This document shows positions 10,752-45,900 of a stretch of DNA of 64,000 bases, one piece after another. The notes under the pieces are model-generated. The model was not told the DNA's origin. It did not search any database and saw nothing but the letters and a program-made list of their open reading frames with translations. The translations under genes and the position numbers were made by a program. This DNA comes from Branchipolynoe longqiensis. Taxonomy: Eukaryota > Annelida > Polychaeta > Phyllodocida > Polynoidae. The stretch lies in the NCBI GenBank assembly GCA_030323885.1, contig CM059188.1, positions 114,432,776-114,496,775 of the forward strand, written 5' to 3'. Each line of letters starts with the position of its first letter. Positions within the stretch are counted from its first letter, which is position 1.

Positions 10752-13700
10752 ATGATTCCACTCACCGAACTACTGTGGCTATGTCTAATCGTTTTAAATG
10801 CTGGTGTCGCGTGTGGCCGAGGAGAAACAAAGAATGTTCTTCTTATAGTCGGTAAGATCAACAAATGTGTGTATTGCGTTACTTCGAAACGGTTGTTGTG
10901 TTCGTTTGGACACGCCGGCGTACGCCGAAAGTGTAATCAAGCGCACAAAATGAGCAGTTTGATGAGTTGACAAATGTCTGGTGTGATACTCCCCATAGCT
11001 ATGTAATGTGAAATAATGTTTCCAAATGCTTATAAATCATATATCTCTTTTTAATCTCTTAAAAAACCATAAGCCGCCGTGATTGACATGTCAGTCACCA
11101 TAGCAACTCCCGCCTAAATAGACACCACATACTAGTTATCCTGGAATGTGACACAAAATTGTAAAGTTTTGTTGACATCAATGAAACAGTTTTAACATGA
11201 ATATTAATATGGTACCAAATTCATCTGTTTGTGATCGATATTAAGAAAGTTATGTCATTTCCGAACTGTCAAAAACAACCAATCCTTGCCAGGTTTTATT
11301 TTGGAAGACAGTAATTAGTAAAATAATTCTTGTTTTAATTTGTTGTGTGATATGTGTTTGGTTTTCAAGTTATGTGAGTCATTTTTTACTTTTTTGCTCA
11401 ATTTGTATGAGATCAACATCAAAAAGTGAAATAGCTTTTTTTCAACTATACTAGTTAGTACATTTACTTAGTACATTTTCTGGGATCAATTAAATACATC
11501 TAGTCACAATAACTATTTGAATTGCTTTACAAAAAAAAGAAAGAATTAAGAACGTGCTAATCATTAACATGGAAACCAAATATATGGTACTCGATTTCAG
11601 AAAACGGCCCATTATATACATCTTCAAACTGTCATCAAACACATTAACATTTCTCCAGAGAAACATTAAATATCTACACTAAGTGGAAAAAATAAAGTCC
11701 ACGAATAGTATTACACGTTTATGTGATGTACAAAAATGGAGACCCCCCCCCCCCCGAAAAACTAGAAGTATTTGGAGCATATCGGATTTCAGAAGTCTGG
11801 ATAAAGGATTGTGTGGCTACATGATATAGTAATACCTTTGACAGTTTGGCTAGGATAACTAGGTGATAATGACTAATTTTTCGCTGTCTCGTCGCCTAGT
11901 GCAGCTCTCCCCTGGAGGATGCTTAAAATCCCCCAAGTTCAATTCTTGAGCGACTACTGGTAGTAGAGATAAAGTAAACGGTAGATTAATGATACAAAGT
12001 AGTTTATAAAAATACCCAATGTTCACATTTTCAATTGCTGTTATGTCTGTATATTTTCCATTTGAACAAATAGATTCCAAAGTAAATGTTTGTTTCCTGA
12101 CTGCCAAATTTAAAAATAAGAAGTTTATATCACTATAAAGTTACAGATGCAGTTATTTCTAATTCCATAAAGTGAGAGTACCATTAAAATAACCGGATAT
12201 TGTGAAAGTACGACTGAACACTTTGACTTCTGGATACTGAATCTTTATTCACGTCCAGGGCCATAAACCGCCGGCACCCTTTGAACTCTGACATCATCTC
12301 ATTTACATATTCCTTTGCTCTCCCCACATGCCTGGATGCCTTTTATGCATATATTCCAGATATGATCTAATCTAAAGAACATTGTAAAAGCTTATCTCCT
12401 TGCCATAACTGATTTCTACAGCAGTGCGCAGTTTTATCACATCCTTACATTATGTTCTGTTTGTCAGCCGATGATGCTGGCTTCGAGACAAGCGTGTACA
12501 ATCACCCCGTAGTGAAAACGCCACACATGGACTTGCTTGCGAAGAGAGGCCTTGTCTTCAACAATGCGTTTACCTCCGTGAGCAGCTGTTCTCCCAGCAG
12601 GTATTACTAATCAGTGATATAAATAAGGAAAGATGTTCACTCGTCCACCGGACAAGTCTTATGTGATTTTCACATGTCCGTCTGTATCAATTTTTAAGTC
12701 ATTGGTTTGACTCGGCTAGGGTTCGAACTCAGCATTTCGAATCCCACAACCTACTAGAATGGGAGGCGGACGCTCAACTCATTCGGCCATCGCCTCTGGT
12801 TACGTATTCCGTCTGTCATACACCAGAAAAAAACAAACAAAAATAAAAACTGCCTGCCCGACCCTGATTTGTGTGATCAAAAGGACGATCACCAACTTTC
12901 TTTTATATTTGGCCTAACATTAATTTCAGATAATAAATATCCCTTAACTGTACTTGTGAAATAGAAAATTATTACGAAATTGGCAGTCACGTTTTAATAA
13001 GTGATTGTCTAGATGTGGCTTATTAAACTGCTGGTCATTGTACTCACTTCTCGGCTAAGGAAGTTGTAATGCTATTTGATGACCAGGTCGGCCATTCTAA
13101 CGGGGCTGCCTCAGCATCAGAACGGCATGTACGGACTACACAATGGCGTGCACCATTTCAACTCATTTGAGGGTGTGCGCAGCCTGCCTGGCCTCCTGCG
13201 TGAGAGTGGCATCAGAACAGGTCAGCACTAAATAGACCATTGTCATTGTTGTTCTGTTCTGTACAGACCGGGCATGGTGGCCGAATCCGTAGAGCGGGGG
13301 CCTCGCGTGCGGAAAATCGGGAGTTTGGTTACCGGTCGAGTCAAACCCATGACTTATAAAATTGATACTTGTTGCTTCCTAGCTTGCCGCTTGGCATTAT
13401 TAGGATACGGCAAGGACTGGTTAGCTCAGTGTCAGGATGATGTGACTGAGTGGGATATCAGGTCATGGTGCTGGCGGTCTGATCTCCCAGTTGGACAGCA
13501 CTATAAAGTTGCAATGAGTGCACACTGTCACAAGCCGGTGCCCGTCCTGATATTACCTTAGATGTTGCCAAGATGTAAAACTCCAACAAACAAACAAAAT
13601 CACTACTCATTGGTGTGTGTGTTGAAATGATGTTCTGGATATGTTTGGTTTCCAGGTTGTGTGAGTGATTTTTAACAACCTTTTTGCTCAATTTGTATCA

Positions 13701-14663: not shown

Positions 14664-17600
14664 AACTGCTACAATCTCCCCCTCCCCCCTCACCACCTTC
14701 GAATGATTAATAATGGGTAGTGCTGGTACTATGGGCATAATGTGCTTTGTGTTCTAGGTATCATTGGCAAGAAGCACGTGGGGCCTGAGTCGGTGTACCC
14801 GTTTGACTTCGAGCACACTGAGGAGACTGAGTCCATCCTCCAGGTGGGCCGTAACATCACCTACATCCGGGACCTGGTGCGTCAGTTCCTTGCCAACAAC
14901 GATTCGCGGTAGGTAACTCCAGAAGTCATGTGCGCACTCAGTGGCGTATTTCGGGAGGGGCGGGGGGGGGGGGATCCTGGATGCCCCGATCCCCTCCTCT
15001 AAAATCTTTCTTTCTTTAAAGGTAGAAATACAATGAGTGAAATGTGCATATAAATATCACCAAAATGCCCCATTTTGATGCAATAAAAGCAAATGTTTTT
15101 TGGGGGGCGGGGGGGGGGGTAGAGGGGTATTCCGCCAAACCCTCCAGATTTCAGGGTTCGAACAATCTTGAAAAGACCTTGAATCTTGAAGGTGTCTCTT
15201 GAAAAGATGTTGAAAATTGACCACATGCCAACAAAAAACCTAAATTTTCTAATTTGGATGGGAGTAGAGAGGGGAAATTCTATTGACAACAATGTTTTGA
15301 ATGGCTAAGTGTGTGGATTATTGACTGATCTAGGAATATTATTACGTATAATAAAGATATTAATTTCCTAGTTGCTTCTTTTGCTTGATAAAAATAGCAA
15401 ACAGAAACCTGGTTAAATAAGACCTTAAAGAGTTGACATGTATATAATCATTATAATGTCGTATTCTTTTGGACTTAAAAGATTAATTTCTTACCCGAAA
15501 AGGCTCTAAAAAGACCTTTAATTTGGTTGCTGTATAGCTGTATGAACCCTGGATTTGTAAGTGCTGTTGGCGCTCACACAGTCGGCCAACATGATATTAC
15601 TCACAGCTTTATCCGCTCCCCCCCCCCCTCCCATCCACCTAACTCAATCCTGGCCACTTCACTGACACTAGGGGCGTAATCGAATAATCAACTCGGGTCA
15701 CCCGAGCCACTTTTTGGCGCATACACACATCTGAGGCAGTCATCGATTAACACGACCCGGGCGACTCTGGTTATCCGAGTCCTCAGAATTTCAAATCGAA
15801 CACCGCGAGTGGAGTCGACAAATACACGTGCCGTGTGCAAAACAATCCGACCCCAGTAACCGACCTCTTGGCTGGGGTTGGCTACGAGCGATGACGTCAC
15901 ATTTGCGCTTGTACCGTCCTGCAGGATAACAGCTACAAGTACCACTCTTACCTATTTTTTTTAGAGAATAACCTAGATTAATGCAATGGAAATATAGCTA
16001 AACTAGGCCATCATAAAATACTTTGAATCCTATTTTGCTGTAGTTTTATCGGTTATTAAAAAAAAAAAAATGTTTGGGATTAAGCCATCATTTTTTCCAA
16101 CCCGAGTGTGGAGAAGCGTATTCGATTATTCGACCCGAGTTTGTAGGATGTGCGCATGCGCCAAAAAGTGGCTCAGGTGACCCGAGTTGATTAATCGATT
16201 ACGCCCCTACAGACACAGGTCGAATAATCGAATACGCCTCTCCACGCTCGCAGTGGAAAAAATGGTGGCTTAATAAAAACAACTTTCTTTTTTTTTTAGA
16301 TAACCGATATAACTACAGTATAATAGGATTTAAAGTATTTTAGGATGGCATAGTTTAGTTATATTTCCATTTCATTAATCTAAAAAAACATCATGTATGA
16401 CTGGTACTGGTAGCTGTTATCCTGCAGGACGGTACCAGCACAAAAGTGATGTCATCGCTCCTAGCCACCCCAAGACAAGAGGTGGGTTACTGGGGTCGGG
16501 TTGTTTTGCACACAGCATGTGTATTTGTCAACTCCACTCGCGGTGTTCGATTTGAAATTTTGACCACTGGGGTGACCCGAGTCGCCCGGGTCGTGTTAAT
16601 CGATTACGGCCTAGTAGATGGGCCTGTACTACTACTCGGACACCCCAAAGTGCCTGTCACGCACCCCATAGTCTATTGGGAGATGGCCTCTTTGACTCAT
16701 TTACATGATGCCTGTTTCTCACTTTTCAGGACTGAGATCACACTCTGACTTAGTGACTCCTTCCGATTGGTGGTCATGTGATGTTTATTATCCCTACCCT
16801 ATATAATAGAGTAATAATGCTATGTGTCAGGCAAGATAGTCCTGGGCCGCTTTCAAGTGTGTGCCTCGGATAAATTCCGAACGTCTGTCTGAACGGCATT
16901 TAGTTGTCAGACGCCTCAAAAATGCTGGCCTCCATAGCGTGCACTTCCTGCAGCCATTTGCAATTGAAAGAAGAGCTCTGATTGGCTGACACACATGGCC
17001 AATTTGGAGGCGTTTTCGCCTCCTACTCTAAAAGTGTGACATCTCGGGAGTCTACTCCGAGGTGTACGTTGAATGCAAATTGGCAACAAAAAAAAGCAGT
17101 CGCCAAGGTGTCCCAGAGTCGACGAACGCGGCCCAGTATCAATTTAATATTTGGTTTGACTCTGTCGGGGATCGAACCCATGACCTCCCCATTGGAGGGT
17201 GCTGTACCGACTCTGTTATTCCGTCCCCGGTATTATCTCCTGTTAGGTAAATGTTTGCTTCTACAGGATAATTATAAATATAGGAAGCTAAAATAAAGAT
17301 GAGTGATACGACAAATATGTGCTGGCATGGGCAGTGTGTGGAGGGGCAGATGACTCTTACCAGCTGGATCAACCTAACTTGCCAGTAGAAAATGGTGGGG
17401 GACCAAAGCACCTACACATCTATGATTAGTAGGTCAGCCTATGCCTACATCACGTGGCCATCGCGAGATAGTATTGTTTCATAGCTACACGAGTGTTGGA
17501 AAGCTTGCCGAAATTATTTTGGGTTCTTTGACCTCAAATTGCTCCAAAATTGGCTATTTTTCATCAAAAAGACTCTGGAATAATGAATATTAGGTTATAA

Positions 17601-28311: not shown

Positions 28312-31300
28312 ACAGATGTATTCAATATTACACCCGCTGCTCACCGAGCATGACGACCTCCTGCTGCTGCTGCTCCGCGTCTTCCTCCTCCTGGTCGCTT
28401 TGGTCCTCCTCCAGGGCAGCCATGTGGATTTGTGAATGTTCTCCAAGTGGGGGCGGGGGCGGGACCTTCCTGCTCTAACCAAAGGGGAGTGTGTGTGTCT
28501 ATGATATTTAAGTCGCCCTATACCCCTGCAAAGCTGAGTCTGCAATAACCAATGCCAGGTCAGGGCGTTCTGTGTCGGCCTGCTACAGGCAAACGCGTCT
28601 CCCAGTTGGAGTTGCCGGTGGCGCCCTCTGTGTCGGCGGACTGACATTGTGCGCCGTAGCGCGGTAGGGCGGTGCTAATCCGTACAAGTCGGGGTGTCAG
28701 CCCAGCTGGCAAGGTTTGGTTGCCGGGGCCGCATTCAGGGTCCGTCTTGTAGGGGCCGTGGAGATGTCTCCGCGATGCTTTTTGGCTTATTTGCGTTCAG
28801 GGTGCGTCTCGGAGACGCCTCCCTTTTCAGATAGGAGACAAAAAGCGCCTCGAAAATGGCCGCCGTATTCAGTGGTTTCAGCCAATCACGGCGCAGCTTT
28901 TCCATTGCAAATGGCCGTCGCCTATGGGGGTGGCCATTTTCGAGACAACAAACTGCTTTTGCCGTTCAGACTAGTGTGATGTCAGGGCCATCTCCGAGGC
29001 GCCTCCGAGATGGACCCTGAACGCGGCCCAGTTCTACTGACCAGTGTGGGTGTAGATACTATGAGTTGGTTTGGTTTGGTTGATTGTTGGAGCTTTACGT
29101 CCTGGCAACATCTACGGTCATATCAGGATGGGTGCTGACTTGTGACATTACGCATTTATGGCGACTTTTTAGTTCTGCCCCACTGGGAGACCAGGACACC
29201 AGGGTCATGACCATGCTCCAATAACCAACTCTTCAATTAGCTAACACAACTGACTAAAAACTAGGAAACTTATCTATCCTTGCTCTATCTCAATCATGGG
29301 TAGCCAATTCTGTATTTCTTTGGTGTGACTTGGCTGGGGATTGATCCCACAACCTCCCGCACGGGAATCAAATATCCTGCCCAGTCAGCCAACGATCCTC
29401 ACTGTGGAAGCCGGGTCTTTCCCATGCTCATCAGATGTATAGCGAATGGTGAACACTTATTTGTCTTTGGTATAGCAAGATTATCTGGGTTAAATGTGGG
29501 CAGTAAATTAGCCGTCAGCTTGGCTACTATCAGATATATGGTAAATCTATTTGGAGTGATTATTGTCACGGTACCATGTCCCTAGCGCAAGATTTTATAG
29601 TCACAGCACCGTGACGACAGTAGATTATTCTACAATCACGGTTCCGCTCAGTGTTATGGTTAGGATTAGGTTTAGATAATTTGGGTAGGCATTGACTGTA
29701 GACTTTGGATCTAAAAGAACGGTATCATGATGCTAGACTGCCGATCTATATCAATGGTACCATGATACTAGACTGCCGTCTTGCTGTCATGGTACAGTGA
29801 TTTTAGAATATCCTCCCTTCGCCACAGTACCGTGACAATAGAGGCGTCTCCATTGGTCTGAATGTGGCAAGCGTCAGATCTAAAAGAACGGTACCATGAT
29901 GCTAGACTGCCGATCTATATCAACGGTACCGTGACGTTAGACTGCCGATCTATATCAACGGTACCGTGATGTTAGACTGCCGATCTATATCAACGGTACC
30001 TTTATGCTAGACTGCCGCACTGCTGTCACGGTACCGCCAAAGCTCGGACACAACAGACTTCAGTGGTAACGGGTTCTATTAAATTGACTTATTACCACCG
30101 TCTGTCTATACAGCAACAAATGCTAAATAAGTGCAAAAGCATCTAGGTTGAATATGTAGAATCAAATCTAGATAATTGTTTTTGTTTTGAAAATTTGATG
30201 TTTTCATCGGACTATGCAGCTTTAACTTATGTTTTGCAATTTGTCTTATTGACAGGGTGCTATGTCATTCATTGTGTGGCCCTGTTTGCACATCGGCAAA
30301 TTAGCCTCAGACACCCATTACTGACCCCGATATGTATGTCAGAAGATGACTGGCTTTCAGCCGTTGATACACTGATCTCTGTTAGGAGACTTGTGTTCAT
30401 GTCAAGGCAGTGACCTCCCTGCAACCTTGTCATAGCGTCTGTTCGGTTAAAGCTGCATAGTCCAATGGTTTTGAGTTTTTGTTATTTTTTCTGAGATAAA
30501 TATATTAGATTGATCATTATAATCTATCTTTCTTTAGTTTGAAGCAACTTTTATTTTTTAAATGGCTAACCTTTGAGATATTTGAAGTGCAAACATGACA
30601 AATTAATTTGGGTAAATACCAAAGGCTTCTGCAGCAACAGGTTCTATTAATTTAATTTGGCATTTCCTTCTATTCAGAAACAAATGTTTAATAAGTGCAT
30701 CAGTGTCTACGTTAGATATGTAAAATTAAATCTAGATACTTTTTTTTCTTTTTATCTTTTTATTGAGGCTGTATTTATACTGTCCATAACCCTGATGTAA
30801 GCCCGGGTACCCAGGCTTGTTTTCAATGCTGGCCAGCTGTAGTTTTGGTGTTGTCTTACCAAGCAGTAGCTGCTGATAAGTTATTTGATTGTCTGCATTT
30901 CAGTAGCAGATAGATAGTCTGTTGGTATGTTTAGTAGTCTATGTTAGTTTTTTTGGGGGCCCTCTTGGCATTGTATTTTTGTTCTATTCTTATTACTATG
31001 TTAGTTGTTTTCTTAAGGTTCTATGTTAGTGTTTTGGGGTTTTCTTGGGAAGAGTTTTCCGCTTTTTTCTACTTAATTCTATACTAGCCTATTTTATTTA
31101 CATGTCCATAGGCCTGTACGTAATAGGTGGTTGAGTTATGTTTGTTTGAAATTGATTTGACTTATATTGTTGTTAGATATGTTATCTGGCTTTTATATTT
31201 CTGGTTGTCCCGCCCTGGGCTGTCCAGTTGGGGGCCGTGACATATCACCTGCCCCCTTGTGGTGCAGTTCAGTTGGGGTTTCCAGTTTTTATTTTGCACA

Positions 31301-34300
31301 GATATTTTTTGTATGTTTTTAGGTCAGGGATTTGTCTTTCTTTCACCGTTTGGGCATTCCATTCCTTGGCGGCCATTTCCAGCATGCTCCTTTCATGGGC
31401 TTTGATTCGGATTCTGGTCTGCCTTAGTAGTGGTGCCTTGCTTGCTCTGGTGTCCCTTAGTGGTTGGGTTAGATGCTTAATGTCTTGGCTATATCCATAT
31501 GCTAATGTTTTTAGGTGGATTATTCTTCTGTTTTCTAGTAGCTTTACTTTAGTTCTTTTGTGTAGGTCATAAGTGGGGTGTAGTTTGTCTACTTTCAGGC
31601 AGATTTTTAGGGCCCTATTTTGTAATATCTGCAATTTTTTTAGTAGCTCTTTTTTAGCACCCATGTAAATTACATCCCCATAGTCAAAGTAGGGGAGTAC
31701 CATGCCTTTGAAGATTTTTATTGACATATCTTGTGTCATATAGTTTCTTAGTTTAGCAAATAGCCATAGTTTGTGGTTTACTTTTTGTATGATTTTTGTT
31801 ACACACAGATTGTAGTTTAGCTGGCTATCTAGTTCTAGGCCTAGGTATTTGTAGTGATTTACACTTTCCAGTGTTTGGTTTCCTAGTGTACATTGTAGGT
31901 TTCTTCCTGTGATTGCTGTATGTGAGAAGAGTACAGTTTTAGATTTATTTGCATTTATGGTTATTTTATTGGATTCACACCAGCCATCCAGCTTTAGCAG
32001 GAGGTTGATACTTGTTTTGGTTTTGAAATTTTGATGCTTCATCGGACTATGCAGCTTTAAATCAACTACAGACATGCCACATCTTTTTGGATGGCAATCT
32101 ATATTTTTCAGCTAAAATCCTGTATGGATCTGTATCACATAATAATTCATATATGTATGTCCCGCATTCTCTGTGGCGGAGTGGTTAGAGTGTCTGACTT
32201 TTTTCTCGGTCAGACTCCTAATCTGAGGGTCGGCGGTTCGATTCCCCGTGACCCTGCTCTGCCAATTTGGATTTCCACCGCTGTGTATAACTTACAGCGT
32301 CACCAAAGGCCGGTTGTTCTCATACCATGTCTATGTGGTGTGGGAGGTTAAAAATCCCTTGGGTCGGTAAAAGTGTAGGCTCGGGCTTTCTATCGACAAG
32401 CAGTGGAGTGGGGAAGACCAGTCGTCTGTGACTGGGATTTCCCCTGCTTGGGACAACTAATGTACCAAAAAAAAAAAAAAGAGAGACAAATAAGTGTTCA
32501 CACTTCCTGTCTACCATTCGCTATTCGCTATATCGCATAGTCAAAGACATAGATACCATAAAATCATGGGAATACAATTACCTCATTTTATTACTTAAAC
32601 ATTATTTACAACAAAATCCATTACATTCACATACAACATTCATCACTGTGGCAGAACATCAGCTGCATATGTCGCTGATTTTGCCAGTCTCAGTATCTCA
32701 GCAAAAAAAAAGAAAAGATTTCCTTAAATTTAAGTAAAAATCTGTATCAAAATAGAGTATGGTCATATCACTAAAGAATAACACCAAAATCCGTATCGGT
32801 ATCGGATATTATGTGGCATGTCCGCAACTATAAAACATGTTTTCTCATCTGGGGCTGGTAGGGAATTTGTTTATTTGTATGTTGTTGTGTTACATCCTAA
32901 CAACATCTAAGGTCATATCAGGACATCCCGACGTGTGACAGTGCACACTCATGGCAACTTTATAGTGCTGCCCCATTGGGAAATCAGGCCACCCGTACCA
33001 TGACCCAATATCCCAATCAGTCACATTATCCTGACAATGAGCTAACCAGTCCTTGCCCTATCCTAGTGCTAGGCTAGGAAGCACCAAGTATCAATTTTTA
33101 AATCATTGGTTTGACTCCACCGGGAAACGAACTCCCGACCTTCCGCACGAGAGGCCCGCGCTCTACCGATTAGGCCACCGCGCCCGGTCCTGATGGGGAG
33201 GGGCATGTGTGTATATGTAGGCACATGTGTGATATGTAGGTGTATTTTATTTGGACGGGTGTAGGCCTACATATAGGCCCTACAGTGAAGCCCCGTTATA
33301 CTTCTAGCGAGTTCCGATTTAACGCGAATTCGGATATAACGCGATGCTTCATTGGACCCAGCATTCTTTAATTCAAGGGTAATTTCGGAACACCAAAGGG
33401 TGCCCCATTCCGATATTGTACATACTGTGTGTGTATTGTGAATATAGTTGGGTCGTTCTCGGAAACTGTGTACCACATATTTAGTTGCCATTATATTTTG
33501 GAGGCGGGGGGGGGGGGGGTTAGTGAGTCAAATAGTTATTGTTGACTCTGTATATTAAGCATGTTAGCAATACTACATGTATTTAATCTATCCCACAAAA
33601 TGTATCCATAATATGCTTCTATAATTTTGTGCTAAAATGAAAATGTGAAAATTTGCATATCAACACCACGCATCTACCCAAACATTTTTTTCAACTTTTT
33701 TTCTTTTCTTTTCAGACAAAATCTTTTTTGTTTAACTGCATTCAATAAAATCTTGTTTGAGTGACCTACCAAGATGGGAGGCGGTGGCTCAACTCATTCA
33801 GCCACCCCACCCCGTCTGGGTGTGTAGGTAAATGTTGATGTGTACTACTTTGGGGTAGGGGGAGGAGAGGCGGTCACAAAGGAAGAGGGCGGGGGGCTCT
33901 GAAAAAGTAGTACTCTTTGTGCTACTATGAAAATGTTGAAAACCTTGGATAACCTTTTGCGTCATGAACCAAATAACTAAGACGCGCTGCCCCTACTGTG
34001 CAGGCCCTTTTTCCTGTACGTCGCCTTCCACGACCCACACCGCTGCGGCCACACCCACCCGCAGTATGGCAACTTCTGTGAGCGGTTCGGCACTGGCTCG
34101 CCGGGGATGGGCATCATTCCGGACTGGCGCCCGGTGTACTACGACCCAGCCCGCGTTGACGTGCCCTACTTCACCCAGGACACGCCTGCTGCTCGCGCAG
34201 ACATTGCCGCCCAGTACACCACAGTCAGTCGCCTTGACCAAGGTAAGCCTTCTCTGCAGCCCGCGCAGACATTGCCACCCAGTACACCACAGTCAGTCGC

Positions 34301-37300
34301 CTTGGCCACGGTAAGCCTTCTCTGCAGCCCACTGAGACATTGCCGCCCAGTGTACTACGGTCAGTCGCCTTGACCAAGGTAAGCCTTCTCTGCAGCCCAC
34401 GCAGACATTGCCCCCAGTATACCACGGTCAGTCGCCTTGACCAAGGTAAGCCTTCTCTGCAGCCCACGCAGACATTGCCCCCAGTACACCACGGTCAGTC
34501 GTCTTGACCAAGGTAAGCCTTTTTTGCAGCCCACCGAGACATTGCCGCCCAGTATACCACGGTCAGTCGCCTTGACCAAGGTAAGCCTTCTCTGCAGCCC
34601 GCACAGACATTGCCGCCCAGTACACCACGGTCAGTCGCCTTGACCAAGGTAAGCCTTCTCTGCAGCCCACGCAGACATTGCCGCCCAGTACACCATGGTC
34701 AGTCGCCTTGGCCAAGGTAAGCTTTCTCTGCAGCCTGCACAGACATTGCCACCCAGTATACCACAGTCAGTCTCCTTGACCAAGGTAAGCCTTCTCTGCA
34801 GCCCATGCATACATTGGCACCCAGTATACCACGGTCAGTCTCCTTGACTAAGGTAGGCCTTCTCTGCAGCCCACACAGACATTGCCGCCCAGTACACCAT
34901 GGTCAGTCGCCTTGACCAAGGTACGCCTTCTCTGCAGCCCACGCAGACATTGCCGCCCAGTACACCACAATCAGTGGCCTTGACCAAGGTAAGCTTTCTC
35001 TGCGGCATGAAATCCTATTTAGCAAAGTTGCATAATCCGATTGTTTTGACTTTCTGTCATTTTCTGAGATAAATATATCAGGTTGGTCATTATAATCTAA
35101 CCTACATTGGCTTGAAATAACTTGGCTTTAAAATGGTTAACTTTTGATATATCTGTAATGGCCCACGGCCCTCCGACTCTCACTCACACGCTCACACACG
35201 GAAGAACACCAAGATTCAATCAGTGTACGCTTCAACCTTGTTTATTGAACCATCTGCTCTCTGCGGCGTCAGTAGTTGTCTGACCCGCCCCCTGACTCGC
35301 CAGATCCCACATCGACTCTATAGGTGTGGGGGGGGGGAGGGGGGGGGGGCAGTAGAGGGGGGGGCAGTAGAGGGCAGAACGGTCGGGGTCTGCCCAGTGG
35401 CTAGCCTTGCCGCCACCTAGCGCAGTGTAGTGGAACTGCGCCGGTGTATGGCGTAGTCTCCGCTGCTACCACGTGGTAGTAGAGCTCATGTACAGACTAC
35501 TACATATCTGAAGTGTAAACATGCCAAATTAATTTTGGCAAGCACACAAAAACTCTGCAGTAGCAGGTTCTATTATTATTACATTGACTCAGTATTCCCT
35601 TCTGTGTGGTTACAAATGTTTATTAATACGGGCACCAGTATCTAAGTTATGTATGTAGAATTAAATTTAGATAATTGCTTTGGTTTTGAAAATTGTATGT
35701 TTTCATCTGACTTTCAGCTTTAAACAGGGGCCCGCCGTAGCTATCAGGGGGGGGGGGGGGAGATGAGAAAGGGGGGGGGGTAGATCACCCCCCCCCCCCA
35801 CCCATTAAAACAAATCCCAGTATGTAACCTCCCTGAAATGACTGGAAATGGCATTTCAGAGCCTTTAGGTTTAAGAAAATTCTTGTGGGGGAGTGGGCGT
35901 ACTCCCAGATCCCGCCCCTAGTGCCTCATACCATCTGCACTTGTTCATTCCAAGAATCAGGGATGAAAAATCTCCGCGGTTTCGCGGATTTCCGCGATTT
36001 TTTATTTTGACCAATTAACGTTAAGCAAAACTCTAAAACAAAATCAGGATGTCTATGACAACAGTTGGTAGTCCGAATCCTGTTCTTATATGAACTTAGA
36101 TGTCGCTAGAACATAAAACGGAATGAGTTAGGTATGTCTGATAATACAATCACAACAAGACTTCCAGCATTTTTCCGCGATTCCCCAACAGTGCTAAGTC
36201 TATTGGAGAAGATCCGCATTTTCACGGAAATTCACCGTCGGTATAATAATCTCGGCTTGATTTCTGCGTTTTTTGCTGGAGATCAGACCACTTTCATCTC
36301 TGAAGAATTTATCTGCCACCCCCCAAAAATCTGCCATCCCCAACTGCAGGGATCGGCCTCGTTCTGAAGGAGCTGCAAGCCGCCGGCTTCTCGAAGAACA
36401 CCCTGGTCGTCTACACCTCAGATAACGGTATACCGTTCCCTTCTGGGCGCACCAACCTCTGGGACCCAGGCATGCGCGAACCCTTCATTGTCTCCTCACC
36501 TTTCCACCCCGTGTCTTGGAAACAGGTCAGCTATGCCTTTGTCTTTAGCGTCTAATAATTATATATATAATACCAAACCACGGTTAAGTTTGAGGGTTGT
36601 TCTGATCACTACTCCTCTGTTAATCGGTGCTGCCAACGCGCATCGTCGTACTCCACTGATGCTTCACTATCTATGGGTTGTTAATGGCATGTTTTTTTGT
36701 TGTTGCTAAGGTACACTTTTCATATTAATTTTGAATTTGACCAAAAAAAAGTGAATTTGATAGTAATTTTGATTGTTTTTTTTTACTAACTTTGGACACT
36801 TTGACCAGACTGTCATTGTTACCGCCTTAACACAATATTGGTCCACGGATTGATGCGGATGTCATTTTTCTGAGATAAATTTATTAAATTGATCATTATA
36901 ATCTAGCTTATTCGAGTTTGAAGTAACTTTTATTTGAAATGGCTAACTTTTGATATTTAAAGTGTAAACATGTCAAATAGTTTTGGTAAGCATGCCAAAC
37001 TTCTTGACAGCATAGTGTTCTGCAGTAACATGTTCTATTTAATTGGCTCAGTATTCCCTTCTATGTGGCAGCAAATGCTTAATAAGTGCACCAGTATCTA
37101 AGTTAGATAAGTAGAATCAAATCTAGATAATTGTTTTGGTTTTGAAAATTTGATGTTTCATCAGACTATGCAGCTATAAAAATATCAGTAATATTCTTTT
37201 AAATTAGCTCAGTATTCCTTTCTATACAGCAATAAATATTTAATAAAGTACATCAGTATCTAAGTTGTGTATGTAGGATCAAATCTAGATAAATGTTTTG

Positions 37301-38448
37301 GTTTTGACAAATTTGATGCTTTCATCGGACTATGCAACTTTAAGTAAGTCTCTTAAACACTGGTGCACTCTGGATGTATTCCCTCCACACCACTTGGAGC
37401 CAAGGTTATCAAAGTTGGACACGGGACACTGGTCTTAACTCTTCTTCTTGGTTATCCATCAGTGGCGACGATGACAGCAACTCATCATTTGTTGTGAACT
37501 CGTTGATGACCGATGAGTCCAATTTGTGCTCGGAATGTGCGGTGGCACATTGGACATGCATGTGTAGCTGCTGTCAGAGAGTCTGGTAGATGAAGGAGAC
37601 AATCTTTTTTTCTGCTGACACTTTTGTTTAGCTTGAGATATACGATCAGTTTCAAACTGTGGTGTGCCTTTATGAATAGAACCACGACTCTTATTGAACT
37701 AGTCACGCTGGGTTTCTTTCAGAGAACCGATTTCGCGGTGAGTCTGCTCGACATCACCCCAACCATCCTGGACTGGTTCAACGTCGCGTACCCGTCCTAT
37801 GGCATCCTGCACCGGCACCAGAAGGCGCGACTCACCGGCCACTCTCTCCTCCCACTCCTCTCGTCTCGTCCCGGCCGCCAGAGGGCCGTCCTAAACGGTA
37901 GCAGCAGCATGGCGCAGAATGACATCATCTGCACAGAGAAGAACACTGGTGAGGTGCGTGTGGTCTTCGCCAGCCACAGCCTGCATGAGGCGACCATGTA
38001 CTATCCGATGCGGGTTGTGCGCACTGCCCGCTACAAGCTCATCCACAACATAGCTGCACCGCTACCATTCATGATCGATCAGGATTTTTTCATCTCTCCA
38101 ACATTCCAGGACCTTCTGGCTCGCACCAGCGACGGCCGGCCCTTGCACTGGTATAAGAAGAGCCTGGAGGAGTACTACTACCGCCCGCAGTGGGAGCTGT
38201 ATGACCTGGTGGCTGACCCCAAGGAGCTAGCGAATCTTGCCCAGGCTGGCGGTTCGCAGGCGGTGCTGACCGCCCTGCAGGGGGCGCTGTATACGTGGCT
38301 GAACGCCACTTATGACCCCTGGCTATGCGCCCCGTGGGGCGTGTACGAGGCGTCCGGGGCCTACAAGCACCGCCCGAAGTGCATGGCCCTCCACAATGGG
38401 CAGCGCATCCCTCGTTACTTTGTTACGGATGAGAATAGCCGTAGCTAG
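10752..38448 (+). CDS. SGSH: N-sulphoglucosamine sulphohydrolase (heparan N-sulfatase), complete
   Basis: Seven exons: 10752-10851, 12468-12600, 13087-13220, 14758-14908, 34004-34242, 36350-36525, 37723-38448. All are GT-AG with matching phases, giving 552 residues and a TAG stop. The lysosomal enzyme removes N-linked sulfate from glucosamine during heparan sulfate breakdown. A hydrophobic signal peptide (about residues 1-21) is followed by NVLLIV-ADD (metal ligands D35, D36). Then come the sulfatase signature CSPSR (C74 becomes formylglycine, R78), GIIGKKHVG (K127, H129), FHDPHRCGH (H185) and [12 protein letters not shown] (D277, N278, R286). These lie four positions after the human residues throughout. 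The human enzyme has about 502 residues; the excess is mostly an insertion around residues 366-391 and a longer C-terminus. Exon 5 is followed by a minisatellite that copies its donor (34175-35005). Intron 4 is 19 kb of repeats. LRRC45 lies downstream, facing it. Confidence 0.97.
11180..11640. mobile_element. Degraded TIR element (GGGTCGTTCTCTGAAAC family)
   Basis: Shares AATTTGTTGTGTG, TTTTTGCTCAATTTG, GAGATCAACATCAAAAAGTGAAATAG and an end near 11600 (CGATTTCAGAAAACGGCCC) with the copies at 33436-33760 and 41692-42245. A short piece recurs at 13620-13705. Lies in SGSH intron 1. Confidence 0.55.
12689..12800 (-). mobile_element. SINE-A head fragment
   Basis: On the minus strand: CCAGAGGCGATGGCCGAATG A box, a B-box-like region, then CAAACCAATGACTTAAAAATTG. 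Truncated after the head. SGSH intron 2. Confidence 0.75.
13267..13598 (+). mobile_element. SINE-A, full-length divergent subtype
   Basis: The head reads GGCATGGTGGCCGAATCCGTAGAGCG, a different tRNA-like head from most copies. The body and the tail (GATGTTGCCAAGATGTAAAAC then CAAACAAACAAA) are SINE-A. SGSH intron 3, about 45 bp after exon 3. Confidence 0.8.
14029..14318. repeat. (ATTC)n and (CCCT)n microsatellite block
   Basis: ATTC repeats at both ends (14029-14095, 14284-14315) flank a pyrimidine-only CCCT/CCCTC tract. Open frames here are low-complexity artefacts. SGSH intron 3. Confidence 0.95.
14562..14661. repeat. (ATT)n microsatellite
   Basis: About 33 ATT units with one interruption, less than 100 bp before SGSH exon 4. 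Confidence 0.95.
15669..16612. mobile_element. Head-to-head pair of CGTAATCGATTAA TIR elements forming a long inverted repeat
   Basis: A fragment (15669-15727) precedes a full copy (about 15742-16206, CGATTAACACGACCC ... GATTAATCGATTACGCCCC). Directly after it comes an inverted, slightly shortened copy (about 16207-16612) ending GGTCGTGTTAATCGATTACGGCC. The arms are about 400 bp with almost no loop. SGSH intron 4. Confidence 0.8.
16847..17136. mobile_element. Fold-back MITE (CTGGGCCGC ends)
   Basis: Starts CTGGGCCGCTTTCAAGTGTG and ends GAACGCGGCCCAG; internal CCTCGGA / CTCCGAGG and GAGGCG/CGCCTC motifs pair. Similar in ends and style to 28726-29033. Confidence 0.6.
17145..17230 (-). mobile_element. 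tRNA-like SINE head
   Basis: The minus strand reads CCGGGGACGGAATAACAGAG then GGGAGGTCATGGGTTCGATCCCCGACAGAGTCAAACCA, an A-box-like region and a strong B box. The body that follows is not SINE-A. Confidence 0.55.
17752..19340. repeat. GCGGTATGCGGCATGCGG repeat clusters flanking a nested MITE
   Basis: Clusters at 17752-17865, 18180-18260, 18960-19085 and 19150-19335 combine GCATTC and GCATGC units with the end motif AAGCTAAGATTCCTT or its complement. They look like ends of a palindromic element family. The same family lies at 51777-51990. A Harbinger-type MITE (18261-18940) is inserted into one cluster. Confidence 0.7.
18261..18940. mobile_element. Harbinger-type MITE saturated with ACGT motifs
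   Basis: The ends TACCCCTGTCACACTACGACG and CGTCGTAGTGTGACAGCCCCA are inverted repeats apart from a few terminal bases. They are flanked by TAA on both sides (18258-18260, 18941-18943), a TWA-type 3-bp target duplication. The 680-bp interior is made largely of ACGTT, ACGTC and ACGTA units in both orientations. No coding sequence. Confidence 0.8.
19523..19838 (-). mobile_element. SINE-A, near full length
   Basis: Minus strand: A box GCGGTGGCCGAATCGGTAGAGCG, B box AGTTCAATTCCC, body, then GATATCACCTTAGATGTTGCGAGGACATGAAACGCCAACAACC. SGSH intron 4. Confidence 0.85.
20013..20350 (+). mobile_element. SINE-A, full length
   Basis: CCAGACGAGATGGCCGAATG start, B box GGTTCAAACCCTGG, full body, GATATGACCTTAGATGTTGCCAGGACG and a CAACAACCAACCAA tail. 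Confidence 0.9.
20604..20895 (+). mobile_element. SINE-A, divergent head
   Basis: The head (GGACGCAGAGGCCGAATCTGTAGAGCG) matches the 13267 subtype with an internal deletion. The body is conserved and the tail ends CCCCAACAAACAAATT. Confidence 0.8.
20915..21178 (-). mobile_element. CAGGGTCCGTAC-family MITE
   Basis: Inverted relative to the copies in LRRC45. Runs from GTACGGGGCCTGGAAAGTC to ACATGTGTACCGACCCT and carries the repeated CCTTGAAAAG / CTTGAATTCC motifs of the family. Confidence 0.75.
21247..21497. mobile_element. MITE, inverted copy of 4401-4658
   Basis: GAGCCGGTCTCAGAAGGTGC at the left end and TTTGAGAGAGGCTC at the right; the interior matches the reverse complement of the first copy. 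Confidence 0.75.
21648..21934 (-). mobile_element. CAGGGTCCGTAC-family MITE
   Basis: CAGGGTCCGTTCGGGGCCAGGCAAG at the left and CACATGTGTACTGACCC at the right, with the family body between. Confidence 0.75.
22461..22776. mobile_element. TIR element (CCATATATGTCCCAATAGA ends) with an internal 82-bp tandem duplication
   Basis: Ends CCATATATGTCCCAATAGAC and CTTCTATTGGGACATATACGG are inverted repeats. Inside, GCCTCTGAAATAAAGTGGG and flanks occur twice, 82 bp apart (22558 and 22640). Confidence 0.7.
23880..24392 (-). mobile_element. Miniature LTR element (TRIM) with a tRNA-like sequence in each LTR, copy 1
   Basis: LTR-like direct repeats at 23880-24062 and 24212-24392, each TG...CA. Flanks are CTAC and CTAG (3 of 4 match). 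On the minus strand each LTR starts TGTAGTAGT and carries a tRNA-like block with an A-box region (GGTGGTGTAATGATTAGCAC) and B box (GGTTCGA). The internal 149 bp has no coding capacity. The PBS-like site (TGGTTTCCATGACC) follows the minus-strand 5' LTR after one base. SGSH intron 4. Confidence 0.75.
24548..24895 (-). mobile_element. MITE, inverted copy of the 9290-9650 element
   Basis: AGACCCTGTCAGTTAAGC at one end, CCAGCTTAACTGGCTGG at the other, and CAGAATCTGGAACCACTCT near both ends. Confidence 0.7.
24898..25058 (-). mobile_element. SINE-A, truncated
   Basis: Minus-strand head and first part of the body (GCACGGAATGGCCGCTTTGG ... GGATAGGGCAA). The 3' half is missing. Confidence 0.75.
25188..25871. 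mobile_element. Harbinger-type MITE saturated with GGTCCGGGG motifs
   Basis: Ends AGCCCCAGTCACACATA and TATGTGTGACTGGGGCT are perfect 17-bp inverted repeats, flanked by TAA on each side (25185-25187, 25872-25874). The 684-bp interior is almost entirely variants of GGTCCGGGG, GATCCGGGG and GGCTCGTCCGG, in both orientations. Open frames of 150-190 codons here are Gly/Trp- or Pro-rich products of the repeat, not genes. Confidence 0.88.
25905..26207 (+). mobile_element. SINE-A, full length
   Basis: CCAGACGGGCCAAATGAGTTGAGCG start, B box ATTCGAACCCTGG, complete body, and CAGGACATAAAACTCCAACAACC tail. Confidence 0.88.
26337..26625 (-). mobile_element. SINE-A, 3'-truncated
   Basis: GACCAGACGGGATGGCCGAATG start on the minus strand, conserved body, ends within the TCCTGATATGA block. 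Confidence 0.85.
26879..27020 (+). mobile_element. TTAAAGCTGCATAGTCCGATG MITE, 5' half
   Basis: TTTAAAGCTGCATGGTTTTGAG, then TTTTCTGAGATAAATATATTAGG and the following 100 bp of the family. The right half is missing. Confidence 0.75.
27189..27228. repeat. (TG)n microsatellite
   Basis: TG dinucleotide run with single GC interruptions. Confidence 0.9.
27896..27992 (-). mobile_element. SINE-A body fragment
   Basis: CCATGCTAACCAGTTCTTGTC through AATCATTGGTTTGACT; both ends missing. Confidence 0.65.
28171..28310 (+). mobile_element. SINE-A head followed by (ATT)n
   Basis: Head only: CCAGACCGGATGGCCGAATG, B box GGTTCGAATCCTGATCGA, then about 60 bp of ATT repeats in place of the body. Confidence 0.75.
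28726..29033. mobile_element. Fold-back MITE (GGGCCGCATTCAGGGTCC ends)
   Basis: Ends GGGCCGCATTCAGGGTCC and GGACCCTGAACGCGGCCC are inverted repeats with two mismatches. The interior repeats GGAGACGCCTCC-like and AAAATGGCCGCC-like motifs in both orientations. Confidence 0.75.
29082..29400 (-). mobile_element. SINE-A-related, divergent
   Basis: The 3' end is clear (CCTGGCAACATCTACGGTCATATCAGGATGG); the head half (B box GGGATTGATCCCAC on +) is a different subtype. Confidence 0.7.
29560..30040. repeat. Palindrome-rich 35-bp satellite (CGGTACCGTGA ... GACTGCCGATCTATATCAA)
   Basis: GACTGCCGATC recurs with a 35-bp period (29905, 29940, 29975) and more loosely upstream. Each unit carries a CACGGTACCGTG-like palindrome centred on GGTACC. 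SGSH intron 4. Confidence 0.8.
30062..30225 (+). mobile_element. TTAAAGCTGCATAGTCCGATG MITE, 3' half
   Basis: Family sequence from GGTTCTATTAAATTGAC to the end TCATCGGACTATGCAGCTTTAA. Confidence 0.8.
30447..32060 (+). mobile_element. TTAAAGCTGCATAGTCCGATG MITE interrupted by a LINE
   Basis: The left end TTAAAGCTGCATAGTCCAATG (30447) and right end CATCGGACTATGCAGCTTTAA (to 32060) belong to one MITE of about 340 bp, split by the LINE at 30742-32006. Ends abut TTAA, as expected of a piggyBac-like target, though the family is not proven. Confidence 0.85.
30742..32006 (-). pseudogene. 5'-truncated LINE, antisense in SGSH intron 4
   Basis: On the minus strand an open frame from 32075 to 31269 holds the C-terminal part of a non-LTR reverse transcriptase. 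It begins near the end of the palm ([15 protein letters not shown]), then [14 protein letters not shown], the thumb ([29 protein letters not shown]) and ends KIKTGNPN. About 490 bp of 3' UTR and an A-rich tail (T run at 30741-30750) follow. A 6-7 bp target duplication, GATACT(T), flanks it (30735-30740, 32007-32013). The first ~20 codons of the open frame belong to the MITE. A near-identical copy on + is at 43247-44375. Confidence 0.92.
32165..32480 (+). mobile_element. SINE-B (tRNA-Ser/Leu-like head, poly-A tail)
   Basis: Head: TGGCGGAGTGGTTAGAGTG A-box region, a long variable arm, B box GGTTCGATTCCCC. Body to GGGATTTCCCCTGCTTGGG, then ACTAATGTACC and a 14-A tail. Unrelated to SINE-A in the head; fragments of the 3' part occur at 6320-6375. 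Confidence 0.8.
32868..33190 (-). mobile_element. SINE-A, near full length
   Basis: Minus strand: CCGGGCGCGGTGGCCTAATCGGTAGAGCG, body, then GATATGACCTTAGATGTTGTTAGGATGTAACAC. Confidence 0.85.
33436..33760. mobile_element. TIR element (GGGTCGTTCTCGGAAAC), left part
   Basis: Matches 41692-42000 from GGGTCGTTCTCGGAAACTG through TTCAATAAAATCTTGTTTGA. The right half is missing and a SINE-A fragment follows. Confidence 0.7.
33766..33818 (-). mobile_element. SINE-A head fragment
   Basis: Only CCAGACGGGG ... GGCTGAATGAGTTGAGCC ... CCATCTTGGTAG remains. Confidence 0.6.
34175..35005 (+). repeat. 68-bp minisatellite built from the SGSH exon 5 / intron 5 boundary
   Basis: The true exon 5 donor is at 34243. 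Near-identical donors follow at 34311, 34379, 34446, 34513, 34581, 34649, 34717, 34785, 34853, 34921 and 34989, a 68-bp period with two 67-bp units. Each unit holds about 51 bp copied from the end of exon 5 (GCAGACATTGCC ... CTTGACCAAG), the donor GTAAGCC, and an acceptor-like TTCTCTGCAG 17 bp downstream. Most donors are GTAAG; those at 34853 and 34921 are GTAGG and GTACG. Confidence 0.97.
35020..35723 (+). mobile_element. TTAAAGCTGCATAGTCCGATG MITE interrupted by a solo LTR
   Basis: Left part AAAGTTGCATAATCCGATTG to GATATATC; right part ATCTGAAGTGTAAACATGCC to TCATCTGACTTTCAGCTTTAA. The insertion is at 35154-35504. Confidence 0.8.
35154..35504 (-). mobile_element. Solo LTR with TATC target duplication
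   Basis: 351 bp. On the minus strand it starts TGTAGTAGTCTGTACATG and ends GGGCCATTACA, and includes a polyadenylation-type AATAAA. TATC lies on both sides (35150-35153 and 35505-35508). A poly-G/poly-C tract lies inside (35328-35372). Its first 12 bases match the start of the TRIM LTRs. Confidence 0.85.
35954..36306. mobile_element. MITE (CAGGGATGAAA ends) with a SINE-A scrap inside
   Basis: Begins AATCAGGGATGAAAAATC and ends CACTTTCATCTCTGAAG, with paired CCGCGATTT / TTCCGCGATT motifs. A SINE-A 3' piece (36065-36120) is embedded. A related piece occurs at 62403-62640. It ends about 45 bp before SGSH exon 6. Confidence 0.6.
36862..37342 (+). mobile_element. TTAAAGCTGCATAGTCCGATG MITE, one copy plus a partial second 3' end
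   Basis: First copy 36862-37178 (ends GACTATGCAGCTATAA), then a second 3' third (37190-37342, ends CATCGGACTATGCAACTTTAA). SGSH intron 6. Confidence 0.8.
37480..37640 (-). pseudogene. C2H2-finger tail of a LINE polyprotein, fragment
   Basis: The minus strand encodes [20 protein letters not shown] then [10 protein letters not shown], a Cys2His2 finger of the type found at the C-terminus of some invertebrate LINE polyproteins. Isolated fragment 80 bp before SGSH exon 7. Confidence 0.55.
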
Positions 38449-42976: not shown

Positions 42977-45900
42977 TCAGGCAGAGAAGGGTGACTTTGC
43001 GACATACGTCTGGATGGCATTGGTGAGGATGCACGCTCGATTAGCATCCTCAGCCTTCATCTGACTGATGAGTGATTCGCGTTGCCGGAGCTGGTCCGCC
43101 ATCTGGGAAATCTTGGCGCTTGTTTCATTAGTCAGCTGACGGTGTTTTTCTGTCATCTCTGAAATCACAGGTTAAGTTATCTACGTATTAGGGGTGCGTC
43201 ACAATCATCAAATGCACACAATCATCAAATGCGTCACAATCATCAAATGCACACTAGGAAACCAAACACTGGAAAGTGTAAATCACTACAAATACCTAGG
43301 CCTAGAACTAGATAGCCAGCTAAACTACAATCTGTGTGTAACAAAAATCATACAAAAAGTAAATCACAAACTATGGCTATTTGCTAAACTAAGAAACTAT
43401 ATGACACAAGATATGTCAATAAAAATCTTCAAAGGCATGGTACTCCCCTACTTTGACTATGGGGATGTAATCTACATGGGTGCTAAAAAAGAGATACTTA
43501 AAAAATTGCAGATACTACAAAATAGGGCCCTGAAAATCTGCCTGAAAGTAGACAAACTACACCCCACTTATGACCTACACAAAAGAACTAAAGTAAAGCT
43601 ACTAGAAAACAGAAGGATAATCCACCTAAAAACATTAGCATATGGATATAGCCAAGACATTAAGCATCTAACCCAACCACTAGGGGACACCAGAGCAAGC
43701 AAGGCACCACTACTAAGGCAGACCAGAAGCCAGATCAAAGCCCATGAAAGGAGCACACTGGAAATGGCCGCCAAGGCATGGAATGCGCAAACGGTGAAAG
43801 AAAGACAAATCCCTGACCTAAAAACGTACAAAAAATATTTGTGCAAAATAAAAACTGGGAACCCCAACTGAACTGCACCACAAGGGGGCAGGTGATAGGT
43901 CACGGCCCACCAACTGGACAGCCCAGGGCGGGATAACCGGAAATATAAAAGCCAGATAACATATCCAACAACAATATAAATCATTTCAAATTCAAACAAA
44001 CATAACTCAACCACCTATTACGAACAGGCCTATGGACATGTAAATAAAATAGGCTAGTATAGAATTAAGTAGAAAAAAGCGGAAAACTCTTCCCAAGAAA
44101 ATCCCAAAACACTAACATAGAACCCTAAGAAAACAACTAACATAGTAATAAGAATAGAACAAAAACTCAATGCCAAGAGGGCCCAAAAAAACTAACATAG
44201 GTTACTAAACGCACCAACAGATCTATCTGCTACTGAAATGCAGACAATGAAATAACTTATCAGCAGCTACTGCTTGGTAAGACAACACCAACACTACAGC
44301 TGGCCAGCATTGAAAACAAGCCTGGATACCCGGGCTTACATGCTATGGACAGTATAAATACAGCCTCAATAAAAAATAAAAAAATTTAAAAATCAACATT
44401 TTCATAAGCGCACAGTCCGTACACATGTGAAGATATGGAATTGAAGGCTATTTCAAGGTGGTTTTTAATAGGAATTCAAGACTATTTTCATTTGGATTTA
44501 GTCCGAAATCACCATGGCGATTTCAGACTAATTTAGATCATTGGGGACAGTTTAATGGATTTCAAGACTTTTCGAGGCTAATTACCCAAAATAGGTTCAG
44601 GGCCAAAATAGGTTCAGGCCCTTGAAATGAGGCAAATGAAATTCAAGATCTTTTCAAGACTTTGCAGGCCCCATATGGACTCTGTAAGCATACAAACCAT
44701 AGCTTTGGTGGGGTGGAGTGGGAGTGGGTTTATGCAGTTTGTACACCTATGTAAATGCTGATAATTGTGAAAGACCCCTCAGATACATATAGGAGGTTAA
44801 TTGTAAAATATCAACATTACCTGTTGCCAGGACGTAAAATTCCAACAACCAAAAAACCTTGCTGACGGGTGCTGCGCTCACCTGAGAGTTGCCTTTCCAG
44901 CGTGTTGATTGTGGTGTAGAGTTCGGAATGAGTCTGACGCTCCCCCTCCAGCTTGGTGATGCGCGCTTTCATCTCGATGCGCACCTTGCCCGTCTCAGTG
45001 AGCAGCTCGTTGTCTTTGCCCGCCAGCTCCTGCAACAGTTCAAATTAGCCTTTACGCTTAATTTAAAATTCTCTAAAATATTTCACAGTCGTAGAAAGCG
45101 TACGACGAGGGTCGTGTGGGAGGTGTCGTCAAGTATTACTTCTCACCTAATAAAATGTTGATATTTAAAACGTTGTATTAGATTAGATTAGATTAGAGTG
45201 TTTGAGCTGTATGCTCAGGCCAAGTCGGAGACTCCACCATCAGGGCCCACCACATGTGGTGACGATGCTCTGTTTAGTTTTGTCATGTGCAATAATGAGT
45301 TTGAATCTGCTGGCGTAAGCTGGGTGTATCCAGGAATTATTTTTACGAAGTCTTTAATGTGAATGTGTATTACTGTTTTTTTGCGGAGGGAGGCGGCAGG
45401 GGGGGGGGGGGGGGTGTCTGGAGAAATAGTACGCTTTCTACGACCATGGAAATGTTGAAAACTTCGGATGATCCCTTACACATCTCATTTATGCTTATTA
45501 CCCGCTAACATTTGTTTCTTTTACAGAGAATCGCAGTTTGACTTATTACATTCTAACATTGGCTTGTTTTACACAGAATCACATCTACGCTTAGTACATT
45601 CTAACAGTAACATGGAGGTCAGTCTTAACATTTTGTTAAAGATTTTTCAAGGTTTATAAAAAAATGTCAAGATATATGTATGTATGTTAAAATACGATAC
45701 TGGTCTGTCTACATGGACCCCATTGTTTAGAAAGTCTATATATATATTACCGTATTCTCGTGGGTTAACACCCATGTGTGGGTTAACGCCCACCCCACAT
45801 TTGACCAATATTTCGTAAACGCCCACCCCATAAACGCCCATGTCTGGGTAAACGCCCACCCCCGCACTTCAGTGATTTGCCAATTTAAAGGCCCAGGGCG

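Follow-up and report, generated by a model that had tools for sequence, protein, structure and literature searches.

A mirage minisatellite multiplies the exon 5 splice donor of SGSH

SGSH and the array at its exon 5 boundary

We examined a stretch of 64,000 nucleotides (nt) from Branchipolynoe longqiensis (assembly GCA_030323885.1, contig CM059188.1, positions 114,432,776–114,496,775; hereafter the window), in which a tandem repeat lies across the end of exon 5 of a gene for SGSH, an enzyme that degrades heparan sulfate. The gene is complete and intact and lies on the + strand. Its exons were placed by translated searches with eight SGSH relatives, and their limits were then corrected to join in frame. 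This gave seven exons (10752–10851, 12468–12600, 13087–13220, 14758–14908, 34004–34242, 36350–36525 and 37723–38448) that form a single frame of 552 amino acids (aa) over a coding span of 10752–38448. The product matches the Pfam families Sulfatase (1.6e-49) and SGSH_C (2.7e-9), and its closest solved structure is 4mhx, N-sulphoglucosamine sulphohydrolase. The original prediction, which named the gene as SGSH and placed the repeat at exon 5 and intron 5, is confirmed by this frame and these family matches.

Among the best 120 of 2,970 protein matches, identity was 53–60% over most of the query and the phyla were mixed. Over the last three exons the product shares 57% identity with that of B. 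belcheri, and in a tree of 62 rows the query had no supported partner. COX1 was looked for in the assembly and not found. A search of the whole assembly (1.85 Gb) with the last three exons returned three matches, all within this same gene. Thus, no second copy or retrocopy of SGSH was found in the assembly with this query, and we set aside retrocopies as a record of past SGSH splicing.

The repeat was detected by Tandem Repeats Finder at 34196–35003 (+ strand) with a period of 68 bp, 11.9 copies, 90% matches and a score of 1287; given this score, the array is not due to chance. Each unit consists of the last 51 nt of exon 5, for which 34192–34242 is the template, followed by 17 nt of the start of the intron, GTAAGCCTTCTCTGCAG. 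The tandem repeat therefore spans an exon–intron boundary and carries many copies of the splice signals, with GT present in all twelve copies and AG in 11 of the 12. This structure makes it a mirage minisatellite. When the assembly was searched with the array, with very common words skipped, there were ten matches, all of them inside the array and the end of exon 5.

Twelve GT donors occur in a row, at 34243, 34311, 34379, 34446, 34513, 34581, 34649, 34717, 34785, 34853, 34921 and 34989, with spacings of 68, 68, 67 and 67 bp and then seven times 68 bp. Both the multiplication of an exon end with its donor and this 68/67-bp spacing had been predicted and are as described. The same holds for the frame of the repeated piece: the exon-like part measures 51 nt, and thus keeps the frame, in nine of the 11 extra copies, and it measures 50 nt in the two 67-bp units that shift the frame (copies 3 and 4). 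The prediction also placed an acceptor-like sequence 17 nt past every donor. This is correct for 11 donors; the sequence is TTCTCTGCAG after ten of the twelve copies, TTTTTTGCAG after copy 4 and TTCTCTGCGG after the last copy, which consequently has no acceptor AG. In addition to this missing acceptor, the prediction overlooked two in-frame stops, a TGA in copy 2 and a TAA in copy 9.

Numbered from the authentic exon, copy 1 (34260–34310) is 51 nt long and open, and starts just 17 nt past the donor of exon 5. Copy 2 (34328–34378) is 51 nt long and holds the TGA. Copies 3 (34396–34445) and 4 (34463–34512) are frameshifted by the same 1-nt deletion. Copies 5–8 (34530–34784) are each 51 nt long and open, with 17-nt spacers between them. 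In copy 9 (34802–34852), also 51 nt, the TAA is terminal and the donor is weakened to GTAGGC. Copies 10 and 11 (34870–34988) are again 51 nt long and open; the donor of copy 10 is GTACGC and the 17 nt after copy 11 end in GCGG. Taken together, seven of the extra copies are both 51 nt long and open, two are 51 nt long with an in-frame stop and two are 50 nt long.

We compared the ten full-length units, a set that contains exon 5 but neither of the 50-nt copies. Their mean pairwise identity is 0.89 (range 0.81–0.96), and identity between copies does not decrease with distance (r –0.10, permutation p 0.26). There are 44 departures from the consensus, 29 of which are in columns that belong to a CpG in some copy. 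Variable columns are found at 7/17, 7/17 and 6/17 of codon positions 1, 2 and 3. This even spread gives no sign of coding constraint on the copies, as far as variation among them can indicate.

Predicted splicing across the array

The array is very probably a mirage minisatellite without function, with splicing joining 34242 to 36350 and the extra donors acting as decoys. The frame of 552 aa is intact only if 34242 joins 36350, and for this the acceptor of exon 6 (36350–36525) must pair with the first donor. We infer that this is the main junction because SGSH is a conserved lysosomal enzyme, no second copy was found and use of any of the 11 downstream donors results in a truncated protein. 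That the extra donors might simply be decoys was one of the two options in the original prediction, and it is the one we favor. The copied donors would then remain intronic, and their occasional use would lead to a truncated product, as computed from the frames, and probably to degradation of the mRNA.

To score the donors we used a hand-written matrix with a printing limit of 2. The authentic exon 5 donor (AAG/GTAAGC, 34243–34248) scores 6.97, as compared with 2.9–3.3 for the other SGSH donors and less than 2 for that of exon 2. Acceptors were given an ad hoc score with our own weights and a penalty for nearby AGs. By this measure nine of the 11 acceptor-like sites score –0.5, and the six real SGSH acceptors score 2.5–4.9.

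Several observations weigh against the idea that the array is without function. Eight of the 11 copied donors score exactly 6.97, with the remaining three at 4.76, 4.41 and 3.82. The + strand of the window has 3,729 GTs and 14 of them reach a score of at least 6; the exon 5 donor and its eight equal copies account for nine of the 14. Thus, by this matrix most of the decoy donors appear to be as strong as the authentic site, and something else must make the first donor win. Two of the 11 acceptor-like sites, those behind copies 9 and 10, score 2.5 and 3.3 and so fall inside the real range. A branch-point-like TTGAC is present 22 nt before the AG (once GG) in ten of the twelve copies. Finally, the GT is retained in all twelve copies, and variable columns are fewer in the intron part of the unit (3/17) than in the exon part (20/51). 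This lower variation of the 17-nt intron part is not significant (Fisher p 0.14, and 0.42 without CpG columns), and on these values we dropped selection on the splice signals of the array as a candidate. If the first donor does stay in use, this may be because only the authentic exon has both a good acceptor and a full exon body.

A second reading is that the array works as an output switch, with copy number setting the fraction of SGSH mRNA that is mis-spliced and degraded and so tuning the level of the enzyme. The truncation that would follow from each of the 11 downstream donors fits this idea. Precedents can be named as well, since the mirage minisatellites of amphioxus are length-unstable according to the sections consulted of PMC3087553, and a variable number tandem repeat in an intron of human ABCA7 is reported to affect splicing in the consulted part of PMC5954066. 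Against this, nothing in the sequence points to regulation, and we consider such a switch very unlikely.

The original prediction also proposed alternative isoforms. In these, one or more open 51-nt units would be included as mini-exons, with at least one unit skipped and 17 residues added per unit. The phase of the unit is suitable, the donors are strong, the TTGAC motif is present in most copies, and inclusion of a single unit keeps the frame in seven of 11 cases. One of these, copy 1, would need a 17-nt intron; among the ten units reachable with an upstream intron of at least 85 nt, six are open (5, 6, 7, 8, 10 and 11). Units 2–11 allow 143 non-adjacent combinations with workable introns, or 23 when open units only are used. 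In-frame inclusion may thus be possible, and nothing shows that this possibility has been retained. By contrast, four of the 11 units (copies 2, 3, 4 and 9) lead to truncation, codon positions give no hint of constraint and most of the acceptor-like sites are weak, with AGs intervening between the branch-point-like A and the CAG. An insertion would also duplicate a segment of the enzyme that is conserved in the alignment to 4mhx. The data do not support the proposal of isoforms, which we regard as highly improbable. An assembly error as the source of the copies, or of their number, is the least probable explanation of all, scarcely credible even with a single assembly to go by, for the copies differ from one another, the array lies inside a 124-Mb contig and similar arrays are present at other boundaries nearby.

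Origin of the array and comparison with known systems

A possible origin of the favored structure, a mirage minisatellite without function, is suggested by two near-repeats at its ends. CTGCTGC in exon 5 (34186–34192) is proposed as the left breakpoint microhomology and CTGCGGC in the intron (35000–35006), which lies 814 bp away and in the register of the array, as the right one. The two are identical at six of seven bases, and the junction between units reads CTGCAGC. In an ancestor with a single copy the near-repeats would sit 68 bp apart, so that one event of slippage or unequal exchange could yield the unit. The segment that joins the exon end to the opening 17 nt of intron 5 would thereby have been duplicated in tandem between them, and further events of either kind would have amplified it to twelve copies. 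The acceptor-like AG seems to have arisen incidentally at the CTGCAGC junction; the last copy, which is joined to the original intron, keeps GCGG.

Mirage minisatellites have been described in amphioxus, in Adh3 and the globin genes BflGb6 and BflGb9 and also in TnC and PGBD5. In the parts of the two reports consulted here, they carry AG/GT signals and reverse transcription (RT)-PCR suggests that splicing is undisturbed (PMC3087553; PMC3902484), although the authors also consider that the repeats could act as cryptic sites (PMC3087553). The SGSH unit is 68 bp long, as compared with 150–160 bp in BflGb6, 157 bp in BflGb9 and 10–72 bp in Adh3 (PMC3087553, same parts). Splicing of the amphioxus repeats was examined by RT-PCR, whereas that across the SGSH array is predicted from sequence. 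The new element is the host, probably a lophotrochozoan rather than amphioxus. We rejected amphioxus on the 57% identity of SGSH to the B. belcheri protein, the assembly size of 1.85 Gb and the HGS matches described below. These HGS matches point to a lophotrochozoan, which the SGSH matches, being of mixed phyla, do not by themselves. The array thus adds what is probably a lophotrochozoan to the hosts of mirage minisatellites, and it suggests that a high density of minisatellites is where such structures arise.

One known minisatellite, judged by the title of its report, supplies several splice donors and thus shares multiplied donors with the SGSH array. The donors in those repeats are reportedly used, whereas use of the copied donors in SGSH is predicted to be minor. 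In human segmentally duplicated genes, internal tandem repeats at exon–intron boundaries can create alternative splicing or new introns, according to the part of PMC2812944 consulted. Those repeats are in primate paralogues of recent origin, many of them supported by transcripts, whereas the SGSH array is in a conserved gene for which no second copy was found. The model of Rogers, in which introns are gained by tandem duplication of a segment with AG and GT (as discussed in the consulted sections of PMC3087553), has in common with our case the tandem duplication of splice signals. A new intron within continuous coding sequence, as expected for intron gain, is not seen here, and the seven SGSH exons join in frame without array sequence.

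Among other invertebrates, earthworm metallothionein genes have intronic minisatellites, none of them at a splice junction in the parts examined (PMC12783039), and the word minisatellite occurs once in the consulted text of a paper on gene structure in Conus (PMC3862624). No boundary minisatellite from a lophotrochozoan appeared in the titles and abstract openings returned by our literature searches, which are poor in subscription papers, and we make no claim of priority. In the SGSH array twelve donors follow one another, nine have the same score and the protein requires the first, which makes the array a natural test of splice-site choice. It bears on how well splicing ignores decoys and on whether mirage minisatellites ever seed new exons or introns.

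Other arrays at exon boundaries

Arrays were examined in the window together with 200 kb upstream of it (264 kb), of which they make up 9.5%. At least three further arrays lie at exon boundaries, and such arrays seem to recur in this genome. HGS lies upstream, some 120 to 161 kb from the window. Among the 120 protein matches listed of 866, the first 24 with a named organism come from molluscs, annelids or nemerteans, followed by one from a centipede. In front of one HGS exon (L013:515–2435, – strand) its acceptor and opening 39 nt are repeated in 25 extra copies. All 25 retain an exon part of 39 nt without stops, each behind a TAG acceptor, and 24 of the 25 have a donor-like GTAA at the end; the spacers are 33–37 nt long. 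Variable columns are found at 7, 4 and 5 of 13 for codon positions 1, 2 and 3 with the authentic exon included. Both function and slippage within the pyrimidine-rich spacer are compatible with this constant length without amino-acid constraint. With 26 similar acceptors in a row, the last of which we infer from the frame to be required, this array too is a natural test of splice-site choice. Exon 11 of HGS was absent from the tblastn mapping.

Since all 25 HGS copies and seven of the 11 SGSH copies are open, we considered whether in some of the recurring boundary arrays the copies act as a bank of mini-exons. There seems to be little likelihood of this. If it were so, occasional inclusion of mini-exons would add repeated peptide units that vary with array length among individuals.

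A 19-bp array of 14.9 copies (window 59988–60265, – strand), seen by eye, starts exactly at the donor CAG/GTAAAT of an exon of an LRR gene and is thus the second array of the window at a donor; beside this exon is a frame (58681–58926) that matches Pfam LRR_6. Two arrays on the – strand are associated with Sulfate_transp exons. One has a 54-bp unit and 9.6 copies (L025:2675–3191); its first copies are degenerate and begin at the donor of an exon flanked by two Sulfate_transp exons. The other, also seen by eye, has a 43-bp unit and 36.8 copies (L026:8537–10000 and L027:1–114) and runs up to the acceptor of a Sulfate_transp exon; the copies that were seen contain the pyrimidine tract and, where the real acceptor has CAG, a CAC. 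A 232-bp tandem triplication (L019:4468–5150) covers the terminal part of the last exon in a + strand gene that was labeled GTPase-like by eye. Four of these pieces had no Pfam match, namely the LRR-gene exon (24 aa), the HGS exon (160 aa), the end of the GTPase-like gene (31 aa) and the exon beside the 54-bp array (62 aa), and they are assigned by position, strand and neighbors.

We then asked how often arrays and splice sites coincide. SGSH and HGS together have 34 internal exon boundaries, and two of these are inside arrays as compared with 3.2 expected from circular shifts, where the HGS limits were set by eye and both positive cases are those that led to the choice of these genes. Targeting of arrays to exon boundaries is thus unsupported, and chance placement together with tolerance suffices. 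A donor scan flagged five of 65 minisatellite arrays as compared with a mean of 1.2 with shuffled matrices, a number reached in nine of 300 shuffles. This excess is weak, because the flag fell on the actual boundary donor in only two of the five, the SGSH and 54-bp arrays. In the HGS and GTPase-like arrays it fell on other sites, and a flagged 26-bp array (L015:1078–1842) has no exon. The arrays at the LRR-gene exon and the Sulfate_transp acceptor were missed by the scan.

Other features were seen in the region. A 36-bp array of 17 copies (window 55676–56292, – strand) has a donor-like GGGAG/GTATGT in many copies, and no exon was seen alongside. A non-LTR element (LTR, long terminal repeat) is represented by two reverse-transcriptase fragments that closely resemble each other, at 31269–32111 (– strand) and 43176–43871 (+ strand), with a best database match of 84%. 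The genes around the window are in the order HGS, GTPase-like, Sulfate_transp and SGSH, which resembles the order at human 17q25.3 (HGS, ARL16, SLC26A11 and SGSH).

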